A stretch of DNA of 56,272 bases from Candidatus Dormiibacterota bacterium (lineage in GTDB: Bacteria > Chloroflexota > Dormibacteria > Aeolococcales > Aeolococcaceae): positions 46,717-102,988 of the forward strand of contig PKXZ01000026.1 of the NCBI GenBank assembly GCA_003132525.1, given 5' to 3'. Below, piece by piece: positions 36,992 through 51,980 of the stretch (its first letter is position 1; the number at the start of each line of letters is the position of its first letter). Position numbers and translations under genes: made by a program. The notes beneath the pieces were generated by a model that was given only the letters and a program-made list of their open reading frames with translations, had not been told where the DNA came from and did not search any database.

Positions 36992-38644
36992 ATGGCTCCA
37001 CATTCGGGCGGTGCCGCAGCACCTCGACTCAGGGTGATTCCCGGTGCCTCGGACATCGGCGATGCGGCGCCTGGCGCCAGGCCCGTCTCTGCCGCCACCC
37101 GGCAACGCCTGGAGCGGCTGCGCGTCGAGCTGGACGTCCTAGAGATGGTCCCGTTCTCGGACCCTGACGCAGCCTATGCACCTGCGGCTGCACTGGAGCG
37201 GCGCGCACGTGCGCTCGGTGACGAGACTGCGGAGCGACGGGCCCAGCTGATCCAGGCGGACGTGCTCTGCCGCAAGGGCAAGCACACCGCGAGCGGGCAG
37301 GTGATCCGGGAGATCAACGAGTGGGCGACCGAGCACGGGGATCGTCATCTCATGGCGCGGAGCCACCGCCTGCTCTCGGTTTTCTTCGACTTCATCGGCG
37401 ATGTGCCCAGCGCATGGGAGCACGCGGTGCCGGCCGTCGACCTGCTCGACGACACCATGCCCGAGCGTATGCGCGCCGACCACATCTTCGGCCTCGGCCA
37501 AGTGCTCGTCCGCACCGGCGCGTGGGATGCGGCCCGCGAACGGTACCGCGCCGCGCTCGAGCTCGCCGACGGTCTTGACGACGTTCCTCTTCGCGTCAAG
37601 ATCCTCAACAACCTCGCATGGCTCGAGGACGACGCGGGCGACGTCCATCAGTCGATGGAGATCGCCAAGCGGATGCAGGCGTTCGCGGAACGGCACAACG
37701 TCGCGCTCGACGCGGCTTGTCTCGACACCATCGCCAACGCGCAACTGAAGCTTGGCCTCTACGCCGAAGCCGAGGCGACGCTGCGCCCGATCCTCGACGC
37801 CGGCGACCTCGACACCCGGCCGATCGAAGGACTGGCGGAGGCACTCAACACCGCCGCTGGTGCGCAACGGCTGCAGGGCCACATGGAGGACGCCGGTGCG
37901 ACGCTCGATCGCTGCATCGAGCTGTGCGCGTCGCGCGGAATGGTGGCCATTCGCGTCGAGGCGCTCGAGGAGCGAGCACGTCTCTATGCCGATCAGGGTC
38001 TCTTCGAGCGCGCATACCAACAGTACATCGAGTTTCACGCGGAGGACGCGGCGCTGCGCGCCGCCCAGCGTGAGGCGAACGCGCGCACCCTCCAGGCGGT
38101 CTTCGAAACCACGGAGGCGCGGCGCGAGGGCGAGCGCTTTCGCCAGCTGTCACTCCGCGACGCGCTCACCGGCCTGCGGAATCGCCGTCACGTCGATACC
38201 GAGCTGCCCGTCCTGCTCGCGCGTTCTCGCGAAGACGGCACCCCGCTGTCAATCGGGCTCGTCGACCTCGACAAGTTCAAGGATGTCAACGACCGCTTCT
38301 CCCATGCCGTCGGCGACACCGTGTTGGTGCGCGTGTCGGGCATTCTCGCCGCCGCCACGGCCGAATCCGGCTGGGCCGCGCGCATGGGCGGCGAGGAGTT
38401 CCTGCTCGTCTTCCCGGCCGTCAGCATCGACGAGTCGCTTCGACGCTGCGAGGACGTGCGCACAGCAATCGAATCAGTGCGCTGGGACGGCGTGATGACC
38501 GGCGAGCGGGTCACCGCGAGCATCGGGTTCACCATGCTGCAGAGCGGTCGCACCAGCCAGGCAGCGCTGCTTGGCCAGGCCGACCGCAACCTCTATGCCG
38601 CCAAGGACCAGGGGAGGAATCGAGTAGTCTCAGACTCCGCCTAA
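36992..38644 (+). CDS. TPR-containing diguanylate cyclase
   Basis: A 550-residue protein. Residues ~30-370 form tetratricopeptide-like helical repeats (e.g. AWDAARERYRAALELADGL). Residues ~385-545 are a GGDEF domain with DALTGLRNRRHVD, the metal-binding DLDKFKDVND and an active GGEEF at 466-470. No RxxD inhibitory site is visible before GGEEF. No transmembrane segment is seen, so it is a cytosolic c-di-GMP synthase regulated through protein contacts. It has a 12-base gap to the next gene and could be co-transcribed with it. Confidence 0.9.
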   Translation: MAPHSGGAAAPRLRVIPGASDIGDAAPGARPVSAATRQRLERLRVELDVLEMVPFSDPDAAYAPAAALERRARALGDETAERRAQLIQADVLCRKGKHTASGQVIREINEWATEHGDRHLMARSHRLLSVFFDFIGDVPSAWEHAVPAVDLLDDTMPERMRADHIFGLGQVLVRTGAWDAARERYRAALELADGLDDVPLRVKILNNLAWLEDDAGDVHQSMEIAKRMQAFAERHNVALDAACLDTIANAQLKLGLYAEAEATLRPILDAGDLDTRPIEGLAEALNTAAGAQRLQGHMEDAGATLDRCIELCASRGMVAIRVEALEERARLYADQGLFERAYQQYIEFHAEDAALRAAQREANARTLQAVFETTEARREGERFRQLSLRDALTGLRNRRHVDTELPVLLARSREDGTPLSIGLVDLDKFKDVNDRFSHAVGDTVLVRVSGILAAATAESGWAARMGGEEFLLVFPAVSIDESLRRCEDVRTAIESVRWDGVMTGERVTASIGFTMLQSGRTSQAALLGQADRNLYAAKDQGRNRVVSDSA

Positions 38645-38656
38645 ACGCGGATCTGC

Positions 38657-39460
38657 ATGACCACTCTTCTCCTCGTTCACGCGCATCCCGACGATGAGTG
38701 CATCGCGACGGGCGGCGTGATGCTGCGTGCGCATCACGACGGCATACGGGTGGTGCTGCTCACGGCAACGCGTGGTGAGGAGGGTGACATCCACAACATG
38801 GACCCCGCGGTCACGCGCCCACGGCTCGGCGAGGTGCGTACCGAGGAGTTGCGCAGGTCCTGCGAGATCCTCGGCGTCGACCGGCAGGCGTTCCTCGGCT
38901 ATCGCGACTCCGGCATGGCGGGCGCGCCCAGCAACGATGATCCGCGCGCGTTCCATGCCACTCCGCTGCCGGAAACTGCGCGGCTCGTGGCGAAATTCCT
39001 TCGGGAGGAGCGTCCCGATGTCGTGGTCACGTACACCGCGGACGGCACGTACTGGCACCCCGACCATGTCAAGGCGCATCAGACCACCGTCGCCGCACTG
39101 GACCTGCTCCAGGATGAGGGCTGGTCGCCGGCGAAGTTCTATATGCACGCGGTTCCCCGCAGCGCGGTGGAGGGCATCGAACGCCGCGCGCGGGACGCGG
39201 GCGTCGAGCTCCCAATCGAGGTCGGCCAGATCGTCGGCATTCCCCACGATGAGATCACCACCGACGTGGATGTCTCGGCGTTTCTCGACCAGAAGCGCGC
39301 GGCCTTTCACGCGCACCTCAGTCAGTACGAGCCCGACAGTCCTTTCTCCACCATCGCCGCGCAGATCTTCGAAGCGACGCTCGGGATCGAGCGCTTCATC
39401 ATCGCTCGCGGTGCGATCGGTGAGCCGCGACCGGAACGCACCCTGTTCGCGGGACTGTAA
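38657..39460 (+). CDS. PIG-L/LmbE-family zinc deacetylase (MshB-like)
   Basis: A 267-residue zinc N-deacetylase. Zn ligands are seen in HAHPDDE (H10, D13) and HPDHVKAH (H137). The block GYRDSGMAGAP is characteristic of the mycothiol enzymes MshB (GlcNAc-inositol deacetylase) and Mca. MshB is the closest known reading. An alternative is deacetylation of another GlcNAc compound, since it lies tail to tail with a sugar operon (6-base gap). Together with the DUF664 protein at 6351 it hints at mycothiol-type thiol metabolism, but mshA, mshC and mshD are not in view. Confidence 0.88.
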   Translation: MTTLLLVHAHPDDECIATGGVMLRAHHDGIRVVLLTATRGEEGDIHNMDPAVTRPRLGEVRTEELRRSCEILGVDRQAFLGYRDSGMAGAPSNDDPRAFHATPLPETARLVAKFLREERPDVVVTYTADGTYWHPDHVKAHQTTVAALDLLQDEGWSPAKFYMHAVPRSAVEGIERRARDAGVELPIEVGQIVGIPHDEITTDVDVSAFLDQKRAAFHAHLSQYEPDSPFSTIAAQIFEATLGIERFIIARGAIGEPRPERTLFAGL

Positions 39461-39466
39461 CCGCCG

Positions 39467-40489
39467 TCAACGCGTCAGCGTCACCTTGGTCAGCCCGATT
39501 GGAGCATCGGGATCGAGGTGCCGCGCGAGCGCAGCCGACAACGCGATCTGCTGACCTCGAACAGCGGCCACGATCGGTTGCAGCGCCTCAGGAACGGCGC
39601 GCGGCAGCGGCAGGTCGGATCCCGGCTCCGCACTGATCGTGCTCACCGTCACGCCACGTTGCCGCAGCACCGCGCAGAGCTCCACGACGTCGGCCGCAGC
39701 CGGGCCGGGAGCCGAGAACGCGAGGACCGGAACATCAGGGGTGACCGCGGCGATCGGACCGTGCCGCAGGTCGGCTGCGGAGAATGCCTCGGCGAAAATC
39801 GCCGACGTCTCGCGGATCTTCAGCGCGGTTTCACTTGCCGCCGCGAGCAGTGGGCCGCGGGCAACGGTGAGCACGCGGTCGGCGCCATCGAGGCGGCGTG
39901 CGATGACGTCGGAACGATGGCGGTCGTCCAGCACCTGACTGACGTGCTCGGGGAGAGCACTGAGGTCACCGTCACTCCAGGGCAGCGGCCCCAGCGCATC
40001 GGCCACGAGCGCCAGCGCCAGAAGGGTCGCGGTGAACGTCTTGGTCGCGGGGACTGCAAGCTCACTGCCGGCGGAGAGGTCGATGACCACGTCGGCGGCA
40101 TCGCTGAGCGGGCTCGAGGTCGCATTGACGATCGCCACCGTGCGAGCCCCGGACGCGCGCATCTGCTCCAGCACGCTGACGACCTCGGGCGTGCGGCCGG
40201 ACTGGCTGATGCCAACCGCCAGGTAGCCGCGATGGTCGGCGGGGATCCGGTAGAGCGTGTGCAGGCTCGGCGACGCGAGCGCGACCGGGCGGCCGCTCGC
40301 CATCTCGAAGAGATATCGCCCGTACAGCGCGGCCGTGTCCGACGAACCGCGCGCCACCAGCACGGTGCCGCAGAGGTGCTCGGGCACGAGCGCTGCGATC
40401 GACGCCGCGATCTCGACGCGTCGTCTCACCAGGCGCTCGAGCACCTCCGGCTGTTCGGCCATCTCGGCAGCCATGTTCGTGCCGTTCAC
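39467..40489 (-). CDS. SIS-domain sugar-phosphate isomerase/deaminase (GlmS-isomerase/NagB-II type)
   Basis: A 340-residue protein with two SIS domains like the isomerase half of GlmS. SIS1 (about 30-165) has ARGSSDTA and ISQSGRTPE. SIS2 (about 190-320) has ALKIRETSAIFAEAF. The GlmS catalytic Glu, His and Lys are matched by E234, H243 (ADLRHGP) and K335 (GLTKVTLTR). Without an amidotransferase domain it fits a GlcN-6-P deaminase (NagB-II) or ketose isomerase. The GTG start at 40489 overlaps the kinase stop (GTGA); an ATG at 40474 is an alternative. It is the last gene of the operon. Confidence 0.85.
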   Translation of the reverse strand: MNGTNMAAEMAEQPEVLERLVRRRVEIAASIAALVPEHLCGTVLVARGSSDTAALYGRYLFEMASGRPVALASPSLHTLYRIPADHRGYLAVGISQSGRTPEVVSVLEQMRASGARTVAIVNATSSPLSDAADVVIDLSAGSELAVPATKTFTATLLALALVADALGPLPWSDGDLSALPEHVSQVLDDRHRSDVIARRLDGADRVLTVARGPLLAAASETALKIRETSAIFAEAFSAADLRHGPIAAVTPDVPVLAFSAPGPAAADVVELCAVLRQRGVTVSTISAEPGSDLPLPRAVPEALQPIVAAVRGQQIALSAALARHLDPDAPIGLTKVTLTR

Positions 40490-41490
40490 GCGATGCCGCC
40501 GACGGTTCCTTCGTCGAGCCACGCGCCCAGCCGCGCGTCGGCGCCGGCGTCTGCGCCCGCCAGCGACAGCCCGGCGAGCGCGGCGCCGACCACGGGCCGT
40601 GTGGTGCACAGACTCGTCTGCGCTTTTGGCGCTTCCGCGCGGATGCTCGTCGCAATGTCGTCGAGCAGGATCGAGCGACTCGATGCGAGCACCGACCCGC
40701 CGAGCGCGATCTGGACCGGTGCATCCTCCATGCCAAGCTGACGCAGTGCCGCAACGGCCAGGCGGGTGACCTCGGAACCCTGGCGTCGCATGATCGCGAG
40801 CGCCTCGGCGTCGCCTTCCTCGGCGGCGCTCACCACGAGTGGCGGCAGTTCGACGACCCGTGCGGCGTCGAGGCTGCCCTGGTGGATCGCGACAGCAACC
40901 TCGAGGGCCGTCGCAAAGCCGAAGTACGAGGCAACAGCACGAGCAAGCGCTGTCGGTGCGCCCCGTCCATCCTCGCTCCGCACGCCGGCGCCGAGCGCCG
41001 CCATGCCGATGTCGGGTCCGCCACCCCAGTCGCCGGTGATCTCACCAAGCGCGGGGAACCATGCGCGGCGACCCGATGGGGAGGCTCCGACGCAGTTCAC
41101 TCCGGCGCCGACTGTGACCGCAACACCGTGACCCGTCCCCGTGGCCGCCCACAGGACCGCGAAGACGTCGTTGGCCACGTGGTTCTGCATCGCCCAGCCC
41201 TGCGCTGTCACGGCGTCCGCGAGCGCAATCTCTTCCGACGGGAGGTCCGCGCCCGCCATGAATACCGCCGCCACCGCCGCCCTGTCGCCGTTGCGCGGCG
41301 CAAGTCCACCTGCGAGCCAGGCGCGATCGATCAGGTCATCGACGACCTGGAGGGCAGGTCCGAGGCCCAGCTGGTGCGGCGACGACCCGGCTCCCCGAAC
41401 CGAGGCGAGCACGGTTCCATCGACGCGGAGCAGCAGCACGTCCGTCTTGGAGTTTCCCCCGTCGACGGCGACGATCAGGGGCTCGTTCAT
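40486..41490 (-). CDS. BadF/NagK-type sugar kinase (GlcNAc kinase-like)
   Basis: A 334-residue actin-fold ATPase of the BadF/BadG/BcrA family, close to eukaryotic-type GlcNAc kinases. The phosphate-1 loop is VDGGNSKTDVLL. The second is near VTVGAGVNCVG, and the adenosine motif ALGGSVL is at the C-terminal side. WFPALGEITGDWGGGPDIG is the family substrate block. The substrate is probably a hexose or amino sugar (Glc, GlcN, GlcNAc) or a disaccharide. It overlaps the GH4 gene by 4 bases upstream and the SIS gene by 4 bases downstream. Confidence 0.85.
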   Translation of the reverse strand: MNEPLIVAVDGGNSKTDVLLLRVDGTVLASVRGAGSSPHQLGLGPALQVVDDLIDRAWLAGGLAPRNGDRAAVAAVFMAGADLPSEEIALADAVTAQGWAMQNHVANDVFAVLWAATGTGHGVAVTVGAGVNCVGASPSGRRAWFPALGEITGDWGGGPDIGMAALGAGVRSEDGRGAPTALARAVASYFGFATALEVAVAIHQGSLDAARVVELPPLVVSAAEEGDAEALAIMRRQGSEVTRLAVAALRQLGMEDAPVQIALGGSVLASSRSILLDDIATSIRAEAPKAQTSLCTTRPVVGAALAGLSLAGADAGADARLGAWLDEGTVGGIA

Positions 41491-42746
41491 GCGAAGGCCG
41501 GCAAGAACTTGCGATTGGCGTCGAGCAGGTCGGTGAGCAGCTGCTCGGCAAGCGCGCTCTGCCCGATGAGCGGATGGGTGAGCAATGCGCGAAACGCGAT
41601 CTCGCGATCACCGCTCACCGCCGCAGCCGCGGCCAGCGACTCGTACGCCGCGGTGTGCGCGATGAGGCCTGCCTGATGCGCGGGCAGCGCCGGGACCGGG
41701 AGCGGTGCCGTGCCGGTGGGGCTGACGTGCGCGGGCACCTCGATCACCGCATCAGCAGGCAGCTCCGGAATGAGCCCGTTGTTGCGGACATCAACGACCT
41801 GAACATCGCTGCCGTCGCCAAACAGTCCGCAGAGCAGGTTGATCGCCGCCTCGCTGTAATAGGCGCCGCCGCGCTGCATGAGCAGGTCGGGTTTGTCGTG
41901 GAGCTGCGGATCGCGGTACAGCGTGAGCAGGTCTCGCTCGACGTCCATGACCTCCTCGGCACGGCTGCGCGATTCGAGGAGCTCCTGCACGACGAGATCG
42001 TGCTGGTAGTAGTAGCGCAGGTAGTACGAGGGCACGGCCCCGAGGCTGTCGATGAGGTGGCGGGGCAGCTCGACGTGAGCCGCGATCTCGTCGCCGTGGT
42101 CCCGGAGCAAAGCGGGCAGGACGTCCTCACCGTCGACGCACACCGAACGGATCCATGTGAGGTGATTCAGCCCGGCGTGCCCGAGTTGCACGGACTCCGG
42201 CGTCACGCGCAGCCATTCGGCGAACAGCCGCTGGAACCCGATGGCCACGTTGCAGAGCCCGACCGCTCGGTGGCCGTGGTCGAGCAGGGCACGCGTGACA
42301 ATGCCGACCGGGTTCGTGAAATCGACAATCCACGCGTCATCCGCTGCGAGCTCTCGCACCCGTTCGGCGATGCCGAGCACCACCGGCACGGTGCGCAATG
42401 CCTTGGCGAATCCGCCCGCACCGGTCGTTTCCTGACCGATGCACCCGCAGCGAAGCGGGATGGTCTCGTCGGTGAGTCGCGCTGCCTGCCCACCGACGCG
42501 GATCTGCAGGAGCACGGCTGAGGCGCCAGCCACCGCCGCATCGAGGTCGCTGGTCAGTGTGATCGTGCCCTCATAGCCGTGCGCGCGGGCGATGCGCTGC
42601 GCGGCGCCGCCCACCACCGCGAGTCGCTTGTCGTCGGTGTCCTGGAGCACCAGCTCGCCGACGCCGAGGCGCTCGCCGACCCGCCCGAAACCTTCGACCA
42701 ACTCGGGGCTGTACGTGCTGCCCCCACCAACGACGGCTACCTTCAT
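41487..42746 (-). CDS. Family 4 glycoside hydrolase (6-phospho-beta-glucosidase type)
   Basis: A 419-residue NAD- and Mn-dependent glycosidase. The Rossmann N-terminus is VAVVGGGSTYSPELV. The family blocks QIRVGG, GQETTGAGGF, VDFTNPVGIVT and the metal ligands C165 (LCNVAIG) and H195 (AGLNHLTW) are all present. GH4 enzymes open by redox elimination; beta-type members often need a 6-phosphorylated substrate. No PTS gene is in view, so phosphate, if needed, would come from the kinase beside it. It overlaps the ROK gene and the kinase gene by 4 bases each. Confidence 0.92.
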   Translation of the reverse strand: MKVAVVGGGSTYSPELVEGFGRVGERLGVGELVLQDTDDKRLAVVGGAAQRIARAHGYEGTITLTSDLDAAVAGASAVLLQIRVGGQAARLTDETIPLRCGCIGQETTGAGGFAKALRTVPVVLGIAERVRELAADDAWIVDFTNPVGIVTRALLDHGHRAVGLCNVAIGFQRLFAEWLRVTPESVQLGHAGLNHLTWIRSVCVDGEDVLPALLRDHGDEIAAHVELPRHLIDSLGAVPSYYLRYYYQHDLVVQELLESRSRAEEVMDVERDLLTLYRDPQLHDKPDLLMQRGGAYYSEAAINLLCGLFGDGSDVQVVDVRNNGLIPELPADAVIEVPAHVSPTGTAPLPVPALPAHQAGLIAHTAAYESLAAAAAVSGDREIAFRALLTHPLIGQSALAEQLLTDLLDANRKFLPAFA

Positions 42747-44011
42747 GCGCTCTTGTCGGCGGGGGTTTCCTCGCCGCGGCGCTGCTCGCGAACCTTCATG
42801 AGATCGATGGCGGTGCGGGCGATCGGCGTATCGGACCCGAAGATGCGATCGAAGGCGAGACGAAGCCCAGTCGTGCTGCAGCCTGCGATGACCGCATCCA
42901 CACCGAGCGTCGACACCTCGAGCCGCGGTGTGAAAGGCGAGATCGAGGCGAGTGCGTCGGCCATCGGCCGGAGCAGCAGATCTCCCCCACCGGTCCCGAT
43001 GCCGCCACCGAGGACCACAAGCTCCGGGTCGAGCACCGCCGCAACCGCCGCGATCGCATGCGCGAGCCGGCGGGCCTCGATGCGCACCACCTTGTCCGCG
43101 TTCGGATCGCCATGGCGGGCGGCATCGAAGATCTCGGCCACGGAATTTGCGGCGCTCATGCCGTGCTCTCGCGCGAGGGTCACGATGGCGGCGGAGCCGA
43201 CGAGGCTCTCGTAGGCGCCGGTCCCCCATGTCTCGCGGTGTCCGTCGCGGACCTCCGCGCCCAGGTCGAGCCGCAGGAACCCGATCTCGCCCGCGAGCCC
43301 GGCTGCACCGCGACGCAGCGCGCCGTCAACGAACACCCCGGTTCCGACACCGCTTCCGACCGACAGCAGCACGAAGTCCTCACTGTCCTGCGCGACGCCG
43401 TGGACGTGCTCCCCGACTGCCGCCATGTTCACATCGTTCTCGAACACGACCGGCGCAACCAGTGCCTCGCGAATGGCCGGGATCACCTTGGGGCTCTCCC
43501 ACCCAGCAAGCTGCGGCGCGAGCGACAGATGATCTGCGCCGGGGCGGAGCACACCGGGCGTTCCGACCACGACCTGGTTGATGTCGTCCAGGCTGATACC
43601 GGCTTCGGCAGTCAGCGTTTCCGCGGCATTGCGCAGTTGCGAGATGACGGCTTTGGCGGTGGTGCGCGGTGTTCGCGTCGCGCAGCGTCCGACCACCGCG
43701 CCGGTGAGATCCACGAGCGCCGCCCTCACCCACTCCCGGCCGACATCGAGGCTCAGCACCCATCCGGCGCGCGGGTTGACGTCATAGAGCTGCGCACTCG
43801 GCCCCGGGAGCCCGCTGGTTCGCCCTACCCGGCGCAGCAGCCCCAGATCGACGAGCTGTCCGAGGACCTCGGAAACCGTCGGCTTGGAGAGACCCGTGCT
43901 CCGCACCACGTGGGGCGCGGCAACGGGTCCACCCGTGTGCACCAGCTCAAAGGTGGTGCGCAGGTTGATGGCGCGAAGCAGGCTGGGCTTCGCAGCTTCC
44001 GGTGCCGGCAT
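42743..44011 (-). CDS. ROK-family transcriptional repressor
   Basis: A 422-residue NagC/XylR-type regulator. An N-terminal winged helix (about 12-72, GLSKPTVSEVLGQLVDLGLL) precedes a ROK sugar-binding actin fold (DVGREWVRAALVDLTG, VGTPGVL, NDVNMAAVGE, SVGSGVGTGVFVDG, VLGGGIG). The usual zinc motif CGxxGCxE is absent; the equivalent stretch reads DGHRETWGTGAYESL. It is the first gene of the operon ROK-GH4-kinase-SIS. It probably represses this operon, the GH9 gene and the ABC operon through the shared motif upstream of all three. Confidence 0.9.
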   Translation of the reverse strand: MPAPEAAKPSLLRAINLRTTFELVHTGGPVAAPHVVRSTGLSKPTVSEVLGQLVDLGLLRRVGRTSGLPGPSAQLYDVNPRAGWVLSLDVGREWVRAALVDLTGAVVGRCATRTPRTTAKAVISQLRNAAETLTAEAGISLDDINQVVVGTPGVLRPGADHLSLAPQLAGWESPKVIPAIREALVAPVVFENDVNMAAVGEHVHGVAQDSEDFVLLSVGSGVGTGVFVDGALRRGAAGLAGEIGFLRLDLGAEVRDGHRETWGTGAYESLVGSAAIVTLAREHGMSAANSVAEIFDAARHGDPNADKVVRIEARRLAHAIAAVAAVLDPELVVLGGGIGTGGGDLLLRPMADALASISPFTPRLEVSTLGVDAVIAGCSTTGLRLAFDRIFGSDTPIARTAIDLMKVREQRRGEETPADKSA

Positions 44012-44033
44012 CCAGTGTGTCTCCCGACGAACG

Positions 44034-44050
44034 TTAGTAAGGTTGGTTAT
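44034..44050. promoter_or_regulatory. ROK operator-like site A, upstream of the ROK gene
   Basis: TTAGTAAGGTTGGTTAT. It agrees with site B at 10 of 17 positions and keeps TTA/TAT ends. The inverted repeat is imperfect. It lies 22 bases before the ROK start, where autoregulation is expected. Confidence 0.4.
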
Positions 44051-44074
44051 CTACAGCATCCTGCCGGACGGCTG

Positions 44075-46051
44075 TCAAGGAACACGCGGGTCGTTGTCGA
44101 TCTGCCACGCAAACGCCATCGGTGTCGCGGCAGTCAGATCGAGTGCGGGCTCATCGGTCGACCACGACTGCACGTTGTCCTGGTACACGGCCGTCGCGCT
44201 GTTGAACTGCGCAAAAGTGTCGACGCCGTTGGCGGGGCACCGGCGCATACCCGCGACAACACCGGTGGCAGCGAAGGAGTTCGGGCCTTCGACTGCCGCA
44301 CCGACGAGCACCGGGGCTGTGCCGTTGCGCGACCCCACGAGGTTCGCGACCTGGTGCTGCATGCAGTCCGGGAAGGTGCTGCCGTCGCCGACGATGAGCG
44401 AGGTCCCCCACGCGTTGGCGCCGAGGATGTTGCCGAGCCAGCGTGAATCGTCGCGAGCGAATTCGTCGGTACCCGTGAGCTCGTCGTACTCCGCGGCCAT
44501 CACCACCAGGCCCGCGCCGTGGCTCGTGGTGTCGAACGTATCCCACGGGAATCCGAATCCGAACGGGTCGGAGTTGCTCTGCGTGACTGCCTTGTCGAGC
44601 TGCTTGCGGAGGTCGCCGAGCAGTTGCGCCCTGGTCACCTCGAGACCGCCCGGATTTCCGGCGTGTTCGATGGCGTTGTACAGCTCGAAGTGCGCCAGTC
44701 CGGTGACGTCGTACAGATTGAGCGTGTCGGCTGCGTCGTTGGGCCCGGTGATGTACGCGTGCGCCCAATGTGCGGCCTGCCGTAGGTAATACATCGCGTT
44801 TGTGTTGGGCATTCCGGCGGGCACCGGGCCTGCCGACAACGCATCGTAGATTTCCGTCGCTCCCCATTCGAGATCGTCGCGCCATTCCTTCTCAGGGTAG
44901 AAGTCGTAAGGAATCGCGGTCTGCAGCTGTCCGGGGTGCGTGTCCGCGAGGGCGAACACATCCTCGGCGTCCTTGAGGCAGGTCGCGGCCTGCTTCGGCT
45001 CAGTGACGCGGTCGAGCTGGTAGCACAGCGCGAAGTCGGCCGCGAGCCGTCCCGCGATGTTGGGGCTGACCAACGACCCCGGTGGTCCCGCCCGGAAGAC
45101 CGGACGGTTGCGGATGTATCGATCCTCGGGATTGGTGCCACCGTACGTGTCGTCCGCCTGAGGCAGCCGCCAGATGTCGTGGTCGCCGACGATGGCATTG
45201 TTGCCCTCGCCGATGCCGACCTGCAGGTAGAGCGTCTTGGTGCTGTCGTTCCACATGTTCTCGAGCCAGCTCAGGCCGAAGGCCGCCTCGGCGCTGTAGT
45301 TGGCGGTGGCCGATCCGGGTCCGAGCTGATTCGGGAAGTCGCGGACGTCGGTCTCCATCATGCCCACGACGTAGCTGATGGTCTCGGTGAACTTCAGATA
45401 GTCACCCGCGTCCCACCAGCCACCTGCGGCGTCGACGGTCACGCCGAGCGAGGTCAGGTCACCCTTGAAGTTGCCGTTGCTGTCGACCTTGGGGATGAGA
45501 TACGTCATCGCATCCTCATCGTTGAGGTGCCCTGGCTCGTTGCGCAGCGCGGATGGGATGAAGTCGGGACCGTCGCGCTCGTTCTCATAGAACGACAGCG
45601 AATTCGCCATCGCGGTCGCGTAGACCCGGGCCGGCGTATCGATGCGAAACACCGGCGAGCGCACCTGCATCGACCCGTCGCTCACGACGATGTGGAACGA
45701 ACCCTCACGGTGGAGAAGGTTGAAGTCGAGCGCGTACACATGGTTGTAGGTGGTGCTCCACGCTCCCTGGTCGGCACCGATGCCTGACGAGTACGCGACA
45801 TCGCCCCGCGAATCCACGACACGGAACACCGCTCCCGGCTCTGCCGCCGCTGTCATCAGGTACGCGCGCTTGGTTGCCGTGGTGGCGTAGCCGACCTGGT
45901 CCACGCGGACCTGGGCTCGAGCCGAAGTCGGCGCTGCCTCGGCGGCGTTGATCGGGATGAGCGCCGGCACCGTGACCAGCAAGGAAGCGGCGACCATCAA
46001 CACGCGCCGTGCGGTCGATCCGGGGCGTCGCGGTCGCAGTCGTGTAGGCAT
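44075..46051 (-). CDS. Secreted glycoside hydrolase family 9 enzyme (cellulase-type)
   Basis: A 658-residue exported GH9. A signal peptide (cleavage near AEAAP) is followed by an N-terminal Ig-like CelD-N domain (~47-138) and the (alpha/alpha)6 barrel. Catalytic-base aspartates are in GGWWDAGDYLKF (D214, D217). The acid Glu is E634 in the C-terminal STDEPALDLTA block, with WGTSLIVGDG before it. GH9 is mostly endo-beta-1,4-glucanase but includes exo-glucosaminidases. Its stop is 63 bases upstream of the ROK operon; it may read into it. A palindrome covers the region just before its ATG. Confidence 0.92.
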   Translation of the reverse strand: MPTRLRPRRPGSTARRVLMVAASLLVTVPALIPINAAEAAPTSARAQVRVDQVGYATTATKRAYLMTAAAEPGAVFRVVDSRGDVAYSSGIGADQGAWSTTYNHVYALDFNLLHREGSFHIVVSDGSMQVRSPVFRIDTPARVYATAMANSLSFYENERDGPDFIPSALRNEPGHLNDEDAMTYLIPKVDSNGNFKGDLTSLGVTVDAAGGWWDAGDYLKFTETISYVVGMMETDVRDFPNQLGPGSATANYSAEAAFGLSWLENMWNDSTKTLYLQVGIGEGNNAIVGDHDIWRLPQADDTYGGTNPEDRYIRNRPVFRAGPPGSLVSPNIAGRLAADFALCYQLDRVTEPKQAATCLKDAEDVFALADTHPGQLQTAIPYDFYPEKEWRDDLEWGATEIYDALSAGPVPAGMPNTNAMYYLRQAAHWAHAYITGPNDAADTLNLYDVTGLAHFELYNAIEHAGNPGGLEVTRAQLLGDLRKQLDKAVTQSNSDPFGFGFPWDTFDTTSHGAGLVVMAAEYDELTGTDEFARDDSRWLGNILGANAWGTSLIVGDGSTFPDCMQHQVANLVGSRNGTAPVLVGAAVEGPNSFAATGVVAGMRRCPANGVDTFAQFNSATAVYQDNVQSWSTDEPALDLTAATPMAFAWQIDNDPRVP

Positions 46052-46053
46052 GG

Positions 46054-46070
46054 TTAGGAATTCTTCCTAT
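46054..46070. promoter_or_regulatory. ROK operator-like site B, upstream of GH9
   Basis: TTAGGAATTCTTCCTAT contains the perfect inverted repeat TAGGAA-N3-TTCCTA. It ends 2 bases from the GH9 start codon (46051), so a bound repressor would cover the translation start and the promoter region. Confidence 0.55.
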
Positions 46071-46172
46071 CGGTTGGCCCGATGTCAAGCGGCGTGGTGA
46101 ACCTCCACGGCAGAAGGCGGGACGATGATCTGGATCTTGTCAGCACCAAATGGTTGACCACCGCGCCGATGT

Positions 46173-46189
46173 TAAGGTAGCTTTCCTAT
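46173..46189. promoter_or_regulatory. ROK operator-like site C, upstream of the ABC operon
   Basis: TAAGGTAGCTTTCCTAT matches site B at 12 of 17 positions, with half sites AAGGTA and TTCCTA separated by 3 bases. It lies about 70 bases upstream of the binding-protein start. A possible -35 TTGACC (46154) and -10 TAGCTT (46178) with an 18-base spacer would place the motif over the -10. Confidence 0.5.
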
Positions 46190-46259
46190 AAATTACCGGC
46201 CGCGGATCATCTCTCACTCCACCGCACGGTGGTAGCCCCAGACTTCGGAGGAAACCCGG

Positions 46260-47978
46260 ATGGTATGGACGTGGCGACCGAACACACGGCGCATGAGGCC
46301 GATGACCCTGCTGGTCGTGGCCGGCGTCCTTGCCGCAGCGTGTGGCTCCACCTCATCGACGACGAGCGGCGGAACTGCAAACACCGGCAAGGTGGGCGGC
46401 AAGCTGCTCATCGACAACGAGAGCGGGAGCACCTGGACCTGCCAGTTCAACCCGTTCAACCCGTCGGTGAACATCACGTCGATCGGCTTCATCTACGAAC
46501 CTCTCGAGTTCATCAATATCCTCGAGACGAATGCCGATGGCACCCCGAAGGTGACTCCGTGGCTCGCAACAGGATCGAGTTGGAGCAACGGCTTCATGAC
46601 GCTGACCATGACCATCCGGTCGGGTGTCAAGTGGAGCGACGGCTCGCCGTTCACGGCCAATGACGTTCTGTATACCTTCGACGCCCTGAAGGCGGACCCG
46701 GCACTCGATCTCAACGCGCTCTGGTCGGTGGATAGCGGACCGCTCACCAACGTCGCGCTCCAAGGGAGCAACCAGGTCGTCTTCACCTTCAACGCACCGG
46801 CGCAGTCGTACTTCTACTACGTCGCCGATCAGACTCCGATCATTCCGCAGCACATCTGGAGCACGCTCGACCAGACGAAGCTGGACACCTACGCCGACAC
46901 AACACCCGTCGGCACCGGCCCGTATCTGATGTCGAACTGCTCGCAGGACAACATCAAGTACCTGCGCAACACGTCCTACTGGCAGAGCAAGCCGGGACAT
47001 CCGGTTCCCCAGGTGGCAGAGGTCGACTACCCCGCGTTCCTCAGCAACACATCGGCCAACCTCTACCTCGCCCAGGGTGAGGCCCAGTGGGGCGCCCAGT
47101 ACATTCCCAACATCCAGTCGTACTACATCAGCAAGAGCCCCTCGACGCGCCACTACTGGTTCCCGCCGACGCTCAACGTCTCGCTCTTCCCCAATCTGAA
47201 CAACCCGCTGCTCGGCAACCTGGCGGTTCGCCAGGCGATCTCGATGGCGATCGATCGCTCGCAGGTCTCGCAGCGCGGTGAGAGCGGATACGAGCCTCCC
47301 GCGAACCAGACCGGCATCGTCCTGCCCACATACAAGGCGTGGTACGAGAAATCGCTCGACACGACGACCTATAGCCCGTCCAAGGCGGAGTCGACGCTCC
47401 AGGCGGCCGGGTTCACCAAGGGCTCCGATGGGATCTACGCGAACGCGCAGGGTCAGAAGCTGTCCTTCACCATCAAGACGATCAGCGGCTACACCGACTG
47501 GGACGCCTCGCTCCAAGTGATCACCGAGGAGCTCAAAGCCGTGGGCATCCAGGTGACCGTCCAGGACGAGGACAGCACGCCGTATACCAACGACACCCAG
47601 AACGGCAATTTCCAGCTCGCATATGGGGAGATGCCGGTGGCCGGCCCGGGCCCCTACTACGAGCTCCGGCCGATGCTCTTCAGCGGCAGCATCGGCTCCA
47701 CCAACTACGAGCGCTACAAGTCGAGCTCAACGGACGCGCTCTTCAACCAGTACTCCGGCGCGACGCCCGCTCAGCAGTTGCAGATCATCCATCAGATCTC
47801 AGCTGTCATGGCCCAGGATCTCCCCGTGATACCGGTGGTCGAGGGCGTCGACTGGTACCAGTACGACACGACGAGCTTCGGAGGCTGGCCGACCCCGTCC
47901 AATCCCTACGCACAGCCTCCGGTCTGGGCGACGCCCGATAACGGAATGGTCCTCACGCAACTCTATCCGGTGAGCTAG
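46260..47978 (+). CDS. ABC transporter solute-binding lipoprotein, family 5 (Dpp/Opp-type)
   Basis: A 572-residue lipoprotein with lipobox LAAACGS (Cys28) and the SBP_bac_5 fold: LTMTIRSGVKWSDGSPFTA near 110-130, NPLLGNLAVRQAISMAIDRSQV near 320-340. A good GGAGG precedes the ATG. Family 5 proteins bind peptides, but a subset bind beta-oligosaccharides such as cellobiose, mannobiose and chitobiose. The divergent GH9 gene and the sugar operon favour an oligosaccharide here. It is the first gene of a five-gene operon. Confidence 0.92.
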   Translation: MVWTWRPNTRRMRPMTLLVVAGVLAAACGSTSSTTSGGTANTGKVGGKLLIDNESGSTWTCQFNPFNPSVNITSIGFIYEPLEFINILETNADGTPKVTPWLATGSSWSNGFMTLTMTIRSGVKWSDGSPFTANDVLYTFDALKADPALDLNALWSVDSGPLTNVALQGSNQVVFTFNAPAQSYFYYVADQTPIIPQHIWSTLDQTKLDTYADTTPVGTGPYLMSNCSQDNIKYLRNTSYWQSKPGHPVPQVAEVDYPAFLSNTSANLYLAQGEAQWGAQYIPNIQSYYISKSPSTRHYWFPPTLNVSLFPNLNNPLLGNLAVRQAISMAIDRSQVSQRGESGYEPPANQTGIVLPTYKAWYEKSLDTTTYSPSKAESTLQAAGFTKGSDGIYANAQGQKLSFTIKTISGYTDWDASLQVITEELKAVGIQVTVQDEDSTPYTNDTQNGNFQLAYGEMPVAGPGPYYELRPMLFSGSIGSTNYERYKSSSTDALFNQYSGATPAQQLQIIHQISAVMAQDLPVIPVVEGVDWYQYDTTSFGGWPTPSNPYAQPPVWATPDNGMVLTQLYPVS

Positions 47979-48020: not shown

Positions 48021-48992
48021 GTGAAGTACGTCTCCCGTCGCGTCGGCTTATTCCTCATCACGCTCTGGGCGGCGCTCACGGTCAACTTCATCATCCCGCG
48101 GGTCATGCCGGGCAATGAGGCAACCGCGGTGCTGGCCACATTCCGCGACGTCAACCCGGCAGCGTTGCATGCGCTGCAGATCGAGTTCGGCGTCAACGTC
48201 CATCAGAACATCCTCCTGACATATGTTCAGTACATCGGGAACTGCCTCACCGGTCAGTTCGGCCTCACGGCGCAACGGGTCCCGGTGCTGACCGAAATCA
48301 TCAGCAAGCTGCCCTGGACGCTGGGGCTGGTCGGTGTCACGACCATCATCGCGTTCGCCATCGGAACGCTCGTCGGCGTCCTCGGCGCGTGGCGGCGCGG
48401 CGGCAAGCTCGACGGTCTCCTTCCTCCAATGCTCTTCATCGTCGCGTCGTTTCCGGTGTTCTTCGTCGGGTTGCTCTTGCTCTATGTGTTCGCGGTGACG
48501 CTCAACTGGCTTCCGCTCAGCTCCAACTACAGCATCGGCCTCGAGCCGTCGCTGTCGTTGTCGTTCATCGGAGATGTTCTCGTCCATGCGGTGCTCCCCG
48601 GCCTCAGCCTCGTCGTGGTGACAGCCGGGCTCTGGATCTACTCGATGCGCAACAACATGATCACCACGCTGGCCGAGGACTACGTGAAGATGGGTCGCGC
48701 CAAGGGGCTGCGCAGCTGGCGGATCATGGTCGACTACGCCGCGCGCAACGCGATCCTTCCCAATCTGACGGGATTCGCCATGCAACTGGGATACGTCCTC
48801 GGCGGGTCGATCCTGGTTGAGTACACCTTCTCGTACCCCGGACTGGGATATCTCTTCTACACCAGCACGACCGACCACGATCTGCCGCTGATGCAGGCCC
48901 TGTTCCTCGTGTACACGCTTGCGGTGCTCGTGTGCGTGCTGCTCGCGGACCTGGCCACCGCCGGGTTGGATCCGCGGACCCGTGATGCGTAG
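48021..48992 (+). CDS. ABC transporter permease (DppB-like)
   Basis: A 323-residue permease with about six membrane helices. The N-terminus VSRRVGLFLITLWAALTVNF and the EAA loop DYVKMGRAKGLRSWRIMVDYAARNAILP are diagnostic of the DppB/OppB class. The GTG start at 48021 follows the binding protein by 42 bases. It pairs with the DppC-like gene directly after it. Confidence 0.93.
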   Translation: MKYVSRRVGLFLITLWAALTVNFIIPRVMPGNEATAVLATFRDVNPAALHALQIEFGVNVHQNILLTYVQYIGNCLTGQFGLTAQRVPVLTEIISKLPWTLGLVGVTTIIAFAIGTLVGVLGAWRRGGKLDGLLPPMLFIVASFPVFFVGLLLLYVFAVTLNWLPLSSNYSIGLEPSLSLSFIGDVLVHAVLPGLSLVVVTAGLWIYSMRNNMITTLAEDYVKMGRAKGLRSWRIMVDYAARNAILPNLTGFAMQLGYVLGGSILVEYTFSYPGLGYLFYTSTTDHDLPLMQALFLVYTLAVLVCVLLADLATAGLDPRTRDA

Positions 48993-49004: not shown

Positions 49005-49940
49005 ATGAGCACAGCCACCATCGCCGCCGAAACGGAGCCGATCGAGGTGGTCGCCGGCACGCGTAGCCAGAGTGCCTTTGCGCGTTTCACGCGGGCCATC
49101 CTTCGCAACCGCAAGGCTTCCGCCGGGACGGTGATCCTCCTGATTCTCGTCCTACTCGCCATCTTTCCCGGCGTCATTGCGCGTGATGATCCCGAGGCGG
49201 CCATCTACGGTCAGAACCTCGGTCCGTCAGCGCAGCATCTGCTCGGTACAACGCAGCTCGGGCAGGATGTTTTCTCACAGCTGATCTGGGGCACTCGCCT
49301 TACGCTGATCGTGACCGTCGTGGTCAGCGCGCTCGCCACGGTCATCTCCATGGTCATCGGGGTCAGCGCCGCGTACATCGGCGGCCTCACCGATCGCTCC
49401 CTCTCCCTGCTCACCGACATCTTCCTGATCATCCCGACGTTGCCGCTCCTGATCGTGCTCGCCTCGTACCTTCCTCCTGGCTCGGTCACCATGATCGTGG
49501 TGCTCACCCTCACGAGCTGGGCGTTCCAGGCCCGGCAGCTGCGGTCGCAGGGACTTTCGCTGCGCGCCCGCGATTTCCTTTCGGCGGCGAAGGTGCGAGG
49601 CGAACGCACCTCGTACATCATCTTCGTCGAGATCATCCCGACGATGACGTCGCTGATCGTCGCGTCATTCCTCGGACTCTCCGTGTTCGTGGTCGGGTTC
49701 GCCGCCGGCCTCCAGTTCCTCGGTCTCGGCAACAGCACGGAACTGACCTGGGGAACGATGCTGTATTACGCGCAGCAGGGCGGCGCACTCGAGGCCGGGA
49801 ATGCTTGGTGGGCGTTGGCGCCCGGCGCGGCGGTCGCCTTCATGGGAGCCGGCTTCGCGCTTGTCAACTACGCCTTCGACGAGATCGGCAATCCCGCGCT
49901 GCGGCCGGTGAGAAAGCGACGTGCCAGAACCACTGCTTGA
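49005..49940 (+). CDS. ABC transporter permease (DppC-like)
   Basis: A 311-residue permease with an N-terminal cytoplasmic segment, an OppC-type first helix region (NRKASAGTVILLILVLLAIF) and the EAA loop (RARDFLSAAKVRGERTSYIIFVEIIP). HLLGTTQLGQDVFSQLIWGTRLTL is the conserved OppC motif. A purine-rich site (GGCGGAAAAAT) sits before the ATG. Its 3' end overlaps the DppD-like start by 20 bases. Confidence 0.93.
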   Translation: MSTATIAAETEPIEVVAGTRSQSAFARFTRAILRNRKASAGTVILLILVLLAIFPGVIARDDPEAAIYGQNLGPSAQHLLGTTQLGQDVFSQLIWGTRLTLIVTVVVSALATVISMVIGVSAAYIGGLTDRSLSLLTDIFLIIPTLPLLIVLASYLPPGSVTMIVVLTLTSWAFQARQLRSQGLSLRARDFLSAAKVRGERTSYIIFVEIIPTMTSLIVASFLGLSVFVVGFAAGLQFLGLGNSTELTWGTMLYYAQQGGALEAGNAWWALAPGAAVAFMGAGFALVNYAFDEIGNPALRPVRKRRARTTA

Positions 49941-50904
49941 AGTCGAGAACCTGTCGGTCTCCTACCTCACGGACACGGCGGACATCCGGGCGGTGGAGAA
50001 GGTCAACCTGAGCGTCCAGGCGGGCGAATTCCTTGGCATCGTGGGCGAATCCGGCTGTGGAAAGTCAACGCTGCTCTTCGCAATCGCGCAGCTGCTGTCG
50101 CCGCCCGCTGAGGTTACTTCGGGGCGGGTCGTGTTCCGAGGCCAGGACCTTGTCCGCCTGACCGACAACGAGCTCCGGCTCGTGCGCTGGCGGGATTACT
50201 CGGTGGTGATGCAGAGCGCCATGAATGCGCTCAACCCGATGAAGAGCATTGGCGCGCAGTTCAAGGACACGATGCGCGCACATGAGCGGGTGTCCGCGAA
50301 TGCCATCCGAACTCGATCGGCCGAGGTGCTGCATCTGGTCGGCATCGACGCGACACACCTCGAGAGCTACCCCCATCAGCTGAGTGGCGGCATGCGCCAG
50401 CGAGCGATGATCGCTATGGCGCTGCTCTTCACGCCGCAACTGGTGATCATGGACGAGCCCACGTCAGCGCTCGACGTCGTGGCGCAACGCTCGCTGATGA
50501 CGCAGATCAAGGAACTGCAGCAGAAGCTCGGCTTCGCGGTCATGTTCGTGACCCACGACATGTCGGTCATCGCCAATTACTCGGACCGGCTGATGGTCAT
50601 GTACGCCGGTCAGGTGGCCGAGATCGGTGCGACCAGATCGATCTTCGAGCGACCGCTGCACCCATACAGCAAGGGGCTCCTGGATGCGTTTCCATCGGTC
50701 CGCGGTCCACGCCGGCCGCTCACCGGCATCCCCGGAAGCCCACCGGATCTCGGCCGCCCACCCACGGGGTGCCGCTTCCATCCCCGGTGCAGCGAGGTGA
50801 TGACGCAGTGCCTCACCACCGAGCCCGAGCTGTTCTCCGTTGAGGCCACGGAGGTGCGCTGCCTCCTGTACGCGGACAGCGCCGAGCCGGCGGTGGCGCG
50901 ATGA
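49921..50904 (+). CDS. ABC transporter ATP-binding protein (DppD-like)
   Basis: A 327-residue ATPase. Walker A is GESGCGKST, the signature LSGGMRQR, Walker B LVIMDEPTSALD, and the switch His lies in FVTHDMSV. The C-terminal oligopeptide extension carries the GCRFHPRC-type Cys set typical of the Dpp/Opp ATPases. The start is a GTG at 49921 that overlaps the permease; its end overlaps the next gene by 4 bases (ATGA). Confidence 0.95.
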   Translation: MPEPLLEVENLSVSYLTDTADIRAVEKVNLSVQAGEFLGIVGESGCGKSTLLFAIAQLLSPPAEVTSGRVVFRGQDLVRLTDNELRLVRWRDYSVVMQSAMNALNPMKSIGAQFKDTMRAHERVSANAIRTRSAEVLHLVGIDATHLESYPHQLSGGMRQRAMIAMALLFTPQLVIMDEPTSALDVVAQRSLMTQIKELQQKLGFAVMFVTHDMSVIANYSDRLMVMYAGQVAEIGATRSIFERPLHPYSKGLLDAFPSVRGPRRPLTGIPGSPPDLGRPPTGCRFHPRCSEVMTQCLTTEPELFSVEATEVRCLLYADSAEPAVAR

Positions 50905-51980
50905 TCTCCACTCCGGCCACCGTCGCCGACGACAACGTGCTGCTCCGGACCACCGGTCTCACCCGGCACTTCCGCCTCGGTGGTCTGCTCTCGCGCCGGA
51001 TGCTCCACGCGGTCGACGACCTCGACATGGTCATCCATGAGCGTGAGATCGTGGCCCTTGTTGGAGAAAGCGGGAGCGGCAAGACCACCGTCGCCCGCCT
51101 CCTGGCGATGATCTATCCACCGACCCGCGGCGACATCCTCTACCGTGGGCGCTCCGTGCACAAGTTGCACTCGCGCAAGGACGTGCTCTGGTACCGGGGC
51201 GAGGTGCCGATGGTCTTCCAGGATCCGTACAGCGCGATGAATCCGGTGTTCCGTGTTGCCCATGGCGTGATGCGCAATCTCAAACTGCATCGCCGTGACC
51301 TTGACGGTGCGCAGCGACGCGAGGAAGCCGAGCGAGTTTTCGACATCGTGGGTCTCAACCCCGCGGCCGACATGCTCCGAAAGTTTCCGTATGAGATGAG
51401 CGGTGGCCAGCGCCAGCGTGTCGGCTTCGCCCAGGCGCTCGCGGTCCGACCCAAGCTGATCCTTGCCGATGAGCCGGTGTCGATGCTCGACGTCTCGATC
51501 CGCGCAGGGATCCTCAACATGATGGCCCGGCTGCGTGCCGAGGAAGAGACGTCGATCCTCTACATCACGCACGACATCGCGAGCGCACGCTACGTCGCCG
51601 ATCGGATCATCGTGATGTATGCGGGGCATGCGGTCGAACAGGGACCCACCGAGGTCGTGCTCTCACGACCCAAACATCCATACACGCGACTCCTCCTCTC
51701 CGCAGTGCCCGACCCTCGCGAGAAGGCTGTGCCAGTCTCAGCGGACAGCGGGGAGCCGCCCCGTGTCATCGATCCCGGTGAGGGATGTCGCTTCCGGCAG
51801 CGGTGCCCTTACGCGATCGACAAGTGCGCAACAGTGACGCCATTGCCGAGGCCGATGGGTCCGGCACATGATGCCGCTTGCCATGTTGCCGTCCCCGACG
51901 TGGTGGATGGGGATGAGGCCGGGACTGCAGGTGAGTGGCGGAGGACACCCGCGCCCGCGGACCAGTCGCTGTTCGGGTGA
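50901..51980 (+). CDS. ABC transporter ATP-binding protein (DppF-like)
   Basis: A 359-residue ATPase. Walker A is GESGSGKTT, the signature MSGGQRQRV, Walker B LILADEPVSMLD, and the switch ITHDIASA. The oligopeptide C-terminal domain has the GCRFRQRCPYA Cys cluster. It forms a heterodimer with the DppD-like ATPase. It is the last gene of the operon and is followed by a weak hairpin. Confidence 0.95.
   Translation: MISTPATVADDNVLLRTTGLTRHFRLGGLLSRRMLHAVDDLDMVIHEREIVALVGESGSGKTTVARLLAMIYPPTRGDILYRGRSVHKLHSRKDVLWYRGEVPMVFQDPYSAMNPVFRVAHGVMRNLKLHRRDLDGAQRREEAERVFDIVGLNPAADMLRKFPYEMSGGQRQRVGFAQALAVRPKLILADEPVSMLDVSIRAGILNMMARLRAEEETSILYITHDIASARYVADRIIVMYAGHAVEQGPTEVVLSRPKHPYTRLLLSAVPDPREKAVPVSADSGEPPRVIDPGEGCRFRQRCPYAIDKCATVTPLPRPMGPAHDAACHVAVPDVVDGDEAGTAGEWRRTPAPADQSLFG

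Follow-up and report, generated by a model that had tools for sequence, protein, structure and literature searches.

The window, that is, the whole 56,272-nucleotide stretch of DNA analysed here, belongs to the 3.2-Mb genome of a Candidatus Dormiibacterota bacterium (113 contigs, completeness 87.6%), and the nearest relatives of its ROK protein (91–96% identical) are found in Candidatus Dormiibacterota MAGs. It contains an island in which genes for a SIS deaminase-like protein, a BadF kinase, a GH4 glycosidase, a ROK protein and a GH9 enzyme lie on the minus strand and are followed by a divergent Opp operon on the plus strand, coding for a binding protein, two permeases and two ATPases. Three palindromic sites, A, B and C, are found exactly where the sequence-only reading had placed them, B being a perfect copy of TTAGGAA-N3-TTCCTAT. 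That reading had also counted 12 matches out of 17 for C and 10 out of 17 for A; the matches are right and the denominator is not, as only 14 positions are fixed and the N3 is free. The features of the island are the following:

39467..40609, minus strand: SIS protein resembling the glucosamine-6-phosphate deaminase NagB-II (NF046059, 188.2 bits, under the cut-off of 430)
40486..41490, minus strand: BadF-type amino-sugar kinase (PF01869)
41487..42746, minus strand: GH4 glycosidase; nearest solved structures are 6-phospho-beta-glucosidases
42743..44011, minus strand: ROK repressor (HTH plus ROK), 422 aa; PF00480 at 1.2e-42, HTH matches to MarR_2 and HTH_IclR
44034..44050: predicted, weaker operator A, TTAGTAAGGTTGGTTAT; mismatches at 4 of 14 positions, 22 bp upstream of the ROK start codon
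44075..46051, minus strand: GH9 enzyme, divergent (CelD_N plus GH9), with a start that by eye resembles a signal peptide
46054..46070: predicted operator B, TTAGGAATTCTTCCTAT; no mismatch to TTAGGAA-N3-TTCCTAT, ends 2 bp before the GH9 ATG
46060..46088, minus strand: predicted GH9 promoter, TTGACA-N17-AAGAAT, from a promoter scan
46154..46183, plus strand: predicted transporter-operon promoter, TTGACC-N18-TAGCTT, recognised by eye
46173..46189: predicted operator C, TAAGGTAGCTTTCCTAT; 2 mismatches in 14 fixed positions
46260..47978, plus strand: solute-binding protein SBP_bac_5, by sequence nearest to chitin-oligosaccharide-binding proteins
48021–48992 and 49005–49940, plus strand: two Opp-type permeases, from family matches
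49921–50904 and 50901–51980, plus strand: two Opp-type ATPases (ABC_tran plus oligo_HPY)

The ROK protein and its neighbours

The ROK protein combines an N-terminal HTH with a ROK domain, as NagC and Mlc do, and predicted palindromic operators lie at its own putative promoter (the weaker A) and at those of its putative targets. In an alignment of ROK proteins, the HTH helix region GLS[KR]PT[VA][SG] is present in eight of nine rows, the ninth being gapped there. GEIGF and a set of zinc cysteines are motifs of the ROK family; the protein of the window has the former and lacks the latter, and by eye the zinc cysteines are also missing from the other rows of the alignment. Zinc cysteines are usual in ROK proteins, and the zinc-type repressors NagC and Mlc have this cysteine motif together with palindromic operators. 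Since the zinc cysteines are absent here, ligand binding may differ from that of NagC and Mlc. Regarding the neighbours, the kinase scored 56.2 bits against NagK_SO3507, under the cut-off of 370, and 75 bits against the MurNAc/GlcNAc kinase 8zo3, and the SIS protein reached 139 bits against the glucosamine-6-phosphate deaminase 8eol. The SIS reading frame as listed runs into the kinase gene (overlap 40474–40609); because of this overlap, and because the family matches start only near residue 45, the true start is probably near 40477. A longer GH4 reading frame, listed from 43229, is a read-through across the ROK gene in another frame.

Standing and conservation of the sites

With up to three mismatches, B (on both strands) and C are the sole matches to the 17-mer in the window; 0.23 matches are expected from shuffled windows, and none of 100 shuffles reached three. 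A whole-genome scan, proposed as a check by the sequence-only reading, returned B as the sole exact copy found in the genome, but the motif had fewer matches (6 forward and 5 reverse) than its reversed control (19 and 19), and the core motif was also rarer than its control (10 and 10 matches against 45 and 45), so that there is no genome-wide enrichment. This result fits a local regulon, and counting over the genome could therefore not have proved one. Ten core sites with up to two mismatches are present in the genome. C is one of these, with its start 119 bp away from that of B, and a hand calculation (9 x 240 / 3.2 Mb) puts the probability of such a neighbour by chance at about 7e-4. A wider regulon in this genome was also considered and rejected, there being no second exact box. 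Two further matches were inspected in their surroundings; L002 lies where a reading frame begins and L006 within a different one, so that both are probably chance occurrences. By eye, these frames are ArsR-like (L002) and hisI-like (L006). A weight matrix was also built, from 16 distinct sites outside the genus that had been located by similarity to the core of B, and it placed B (27.1 bits), C (21.4 bits) and A (13.3 bits) at ranks 1, 2 and 3 of the 56,254 window positions, the next non-overlapping position scoring 6.2 bits. As the matrix sites were picked with B's core, there is some circularity in how B and C rank, and the test is fairer for A.

Conservation of the sites within the genus has also been observed. 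All three sites are found at corresponding places in four relatives (L020, L021, L022, and L025), with B identical at 16 and 17 of 17 positions in L020 and L021. In an ungapped comparison with these two relatives, 16–17 of 17 bases are kept in B and C, and the GH9 -35 is kept at six of six, whereas of the 66 columns lying between, as far as the transporter promoter, only 18 and 24 are kept, near chance. B and C thus stand out as a clear footprint. Site A is identical in L025 and has one central change in the other three relatives, although its conservation is less telling because the flanking DNA is conserved too. From start to start, B and C are 119 bp apart in the window as well as in L020 and L021, despite a diverged spacer, and 126 bp apart in L022; looping between the two sites was rejected, as the helical phase is not kept. 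In L025 (genome G027), the ROK gene is split over two frames and an NN gap lies between B and C, both probably being assembly faults.

Outside the genus, 23 loci with a ROK homologue (37–67% identical) and readable upstream DNA were compared. Within 350 bp upstream, a box with up to two mismatches was found in 20 of them, and with up to one mismatch in 10, against means of 0.40 (maximum 9) and 0.10 (maximum 3), respectively, for control palindromes made of permuted half-sites. The 23 loci are not all independent (L041–L044 share a genus, and so do L100, L101, and L105), and they leave aside the genus loci, second loci of the same genomes, L023 (which ends at the ROK start), L024 (on L034's contig), and L109 (a 32% paralogue). 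A plasmid collection provided ten further records with a ROK match, seven of them rhizobial; the other three, two from Embleya and one from Nonomuraea, were examined, and with these three added the count is 21 of 26. In Nonomuraea gerenzanensis (L112), ROK (33% identical), GH4 (60%) and kinase (45%) genes stand in the window's order, and a 1-mismatch box, GGTTAGGAAACTTTACTAACC, is found directly upstream of ROK. Not every related ROK protein is accompanied by the box, which is absent at up to two mismatches within 350 bp of ROK in L038, L106, and L108, and at up to three mismatches in approximately 17 kb of each Embleya locus (ROK 41% identical). L106 and L108 (G013 C135 and G015 C260), whose ROK homologues are 37–38% identical, possibly form a sister group with another operator. 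In L034, L026, L027, and L097, the best box lies 155–252 bp before ROK, within a gap shared with the binding-protein gene, and for this reason it may serve the latter; L027 and L097 have a second box 41 and 46 bp before ROK.

Co-occurrence was also examined in 40 genomes, picked by presence or absence of matches to the ROK or the binding protein, with the box already seen in many positives, so that the comparison is not blind. An 18-mer with up to one mismatch was found in 14 of 20 genomes having the ROK protein (E <= 1e-40) and in none of the 20 others; at two mismatches, where chance matches enter, the figures are 18 of 20 versus 6 of 20. In fact, the 2-mismatch match of G013 is on a different contig from its ROK gene, and several ROK-bearing genomes have extra matches of this kind on other contigs (e.g., G030 C53, G429 C144, and G305 C1). 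In G015 and G212 the ROK protein is present and the 18-mer is unmatched, the shorter core giving boxes with one or two mismatches. Finally, of 13 genomes outside the genus, 10 have a box-like site 56–58 bp ahead of GH4 (two mismatches in four, three in five, and four in one), a count without chance control in which loci duplicated within a genome entered only once and L103 was left out; near the GH4 gene of L023, L026, and L112 no such site was seen.

Promoters and proposed mode of action

The promoter scan of 43950–46300 gave the GH9 promoter as its sole hit, with 0.3 expected by chance, and its -35 TTGACA stands at equal distance in L020–L022 (L025 is unreadable there because of the assembly gap). 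Its predicted -10, AAGAAT, lies within B, and the ATG follows 8 nt after it, so that the GH9 mRNA may be leaderless or nearly so. The sequence-only reading had B blocking the start of translation, a view that gives way here: although B ends so close to the ATG, it overlies the predicted -10 and should block the start of transcription instead. Its other proposal, that C covers a -10, finds support in the conserved TTGACC-N18-TAGCTT, even though TAGCTT, which lies inside C, matches TATAAT at only three of six positions and the scan missed this promoter. The arrangement is kept in the four genus relatives, and L024, L026, L027, and L060 show it too, with a C-equivalent box and spacers of 16–18. 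As B and C each lie over a predicted -10, both operators would act by blocking polymerase.

From what can be read directly in the DNA (the sites, their conservation and co-occurrence with ROK, their overlap with promoter-like elements, and the gene families), we infer a mode of action, from binding and repression to inducer, substrate and the order of the enzymatic steps. With no inducer present, repressor bound to B and C would mask both divergent promoters, that of GH9 and that of the transporter, at their -10 elements and keep RNA polymerase out, and repressor at A would add autoregulation of the ROK–GH4–kinase–deaminase genes, which are possibly also transcribed from the GH9 promoter. The inducer would belong to the amino-sugar oligosaccharides, with (GlcN)2, as in the case of CsnR, the likeliest candidate, and its binding by the ROK domain would release the DNA. 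The GH9 enzyme, probably secreted, would trim polymer or oligomers, and the binding protein and Opp transporter would bring the oligomers in. The BadF kinase might then phosphorylate them, GH4 would split the phospho-sugar, and the NagB-II-like protein would channel glucosamine-6-phosphate to glycolysis. In this manner, the genes for taking up and degrading what are probably glucosamine sugars would be switched on jointly.

Relation to known systems, substrate and alternatives

The island can be compared with the csnREFGHK cluster of Streptomyces and its regulator CsnR, as described in four papers (PMC6097792, PMC4856308, PMC3048496, PMC5635096). This cluster comprises ROK, ABC transporter, GH4 and kinase genes; CsnR governs chitosan genes, and in vitro it binds the boxes of csnA and csnR, with (GlcN)2 as the strongest competitor (PMC6097792). 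The CsnR site of S. lividans, CCTCTTCTGGTAGGAAACTTTCCTATCAGT, contains TAGGAA-N3-TTCCTA exactly (PMC4856308), and the CsnR-box consensus is AGGAAANTTTCCT, in which positions 5 and 9 matter most (PMC6097792). By hand count, B and C each match this consensus at 10 of 12 fixed positions and A at 7 of 12, with positions 5 and 9 kept in all three. The likeness extends to the ROK repressor, the S. lividans box, a predicted autoregulation, an ABC importer, an operator near the start of transcription, and GH4 and kinase genes alongside that of ROK. On the other hand, the window differs in its SBP_bac_5/Opp transporter, its extra NagB-II-like deaminase, a GH9 for GH46, and its phylum. The CsnEFG transporter is of a type other than SBP_bac_5/Opp, and no CsnEFG-type transporter was found in the island. 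GH46, considered as the missing chitosanase, was found in none of 11 genomes, and a GH9 gene stands in the place of a box-controlled chitosanase gene. The island is read as CsnR-like on the grounds of the box match, the Nonomuraea gene order and the shared helix region; it is not filed as csnREFGHK because of the different transporter and the GH46 not found, and the likeness does not rest on SCO2657 orthology. RokB of S. coelicolor is also a ROK regulator, but its motif (TVCVT centre, A-rich ends) is unlike the box of the window (PMC4856308). Conservation at the levels of genus, class and phylum, together with the published CsnR site, supports the earlier proposal that the ROK, GH9 and transporter units would form one regulon. 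We consider it highly probable that A, B and C are operators of the adjacent ROK repressor and make up a local regulon, probably for glucosamine oligosaccharides, working like CsnR. Judged by sequence, this is a real and conserved ROK operator set, ordinary in kind.

The substrate is uncertain, since the transporter is not of csn type, GH46 was not found in the 11 genomes and the GH9 is by sequence nearest to cellulases. The same ROK regulon might respond instead to, and serve the use of, something other than glucosamine oligosaccharides, such as cello-oligosaccharides or a different beta-glucan; the GH9 would then be a cellulase and the GH4 a 6-phospho-beta-glucosidase. We regard this as unlikely. 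The GH4 has 6-phospho-beta-glucosidases as its nearest structures, and the GH9, which keeps DAGD and the C-terminal Glu, has weak matches to cellulases, glucanases and J30 (the best single match), VC0615-type structures being absent from its listed matches; its predicted model is unusable (pLDDT 34.8). Other binding proteins of the SBP_bac_5 kind bind cello-oligomers, and a related mannoside-binding protein is among the matches of the window's binding protein (151 bits). Against this, the best scores of the binding protein are with chitin-oligosaccharide-binding proteins: 189 bits with 1zty (Chitin Oligosaccharide Binding Protein) and 215 bits with 6lzu/5yqw, named as peptide-binding, which we take to be the Vibrio chitooligosaccharide-binding protein. 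The gene row also includes a NagB-II-like deaminase and an amino-sugar kinase, each under its NCBIfam cut-off, and it shares the box and the ROK–GH4–kinase set with the csn cluster. A GH9, a 1zty-type SBP_bac_5 and an amino-sugar kinase are common to the window and the Vibrio chitin-utilisation operon with VC0615; the window differs in its box, its ROK gene and the signal-peptide-like start of its GH9. Exo-acting GH9 glucosaminidases are known in Vibrio (PMC6096475).

Another alternative concerns A, which might resemble B and C by chance while these are real operators; transcription of the ROK genes would then begin at either the GH9 promoter or an unregulated one. Its four mismatches, by which mismatch counting cannot separate it from chance, are compatible with this, as are a TTGACA lost in three of four relatives with no good -10 seen, and a GH9 stop that is followed after only 63 bp, on the same strand, by the start of ROK. 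However, A is the third-best window site with a matrix that holds no genus site; its score was reached by none of 2000 shuffles of the 63-bp gap and by 8 of 5000 random 63-bp window stretches, and the second boxes of L027 and L097 stand at a similar distance before ROK. A chance origin of A therefore seems rather improbable, and A is probably a real but weaker operator. More remote by far is the idea that the palindromes are fortuitous, belong to another regulator or reflect mRNA structure. The lack of genome-wide enrichment could be invoked for it, and the five ROK-family matches of this genome could in principle compete for the sites, but the conservation, co-occurrence and position of the sites speak for the adjacent ROK protein, and the two next paralogues are only 27% and 30% identical to it.

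With the adjacent ROK repressor as the preferred regulator, an uncultured soil lineage gains a testable regulator, operator and likely inducer. A CsnR-like operator, known from actinobacteria in the cited papers, is also suggested as a marker of amino-sugar loci in other phyla; if so, box-bearing genes of unknown function (here GH9) could be assigned to an amino-sugar pathway and tested. Going further, and tentatively, since we hold it to be somewhat doubtful, the ROK operator code of approximately GTTAGGAA-N3-TTCCTAAC might be an old cross-phylum marker of the use of chitosan or glucosamine oligosaccharides, kept despite ROK divergence (33–48% identity) and exchange of transporter and depolymerase, and here controlling a secreted GH9 enzyme, which would represent a novel type of GH9 with activity on chitosan. 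Among the literature matches listed, taken at the level of titles and abstract beginnings, no such regulon appeared outside actinobacteria; subscription journals were mostly outside this scope, and absence from print is not claimed. Finally, two further genes adjoin the island. One of them (38657–39460), on the other strand, codes for a PIG-L deacetylase near MshB (188.9 bits, cut-off 224.35) that could be either mycothiol-related or an amino-sugar deacetylase, with no box at up to three mismatches nearby, and the other (36992–38644) for a TPR plus GGDEF protein.
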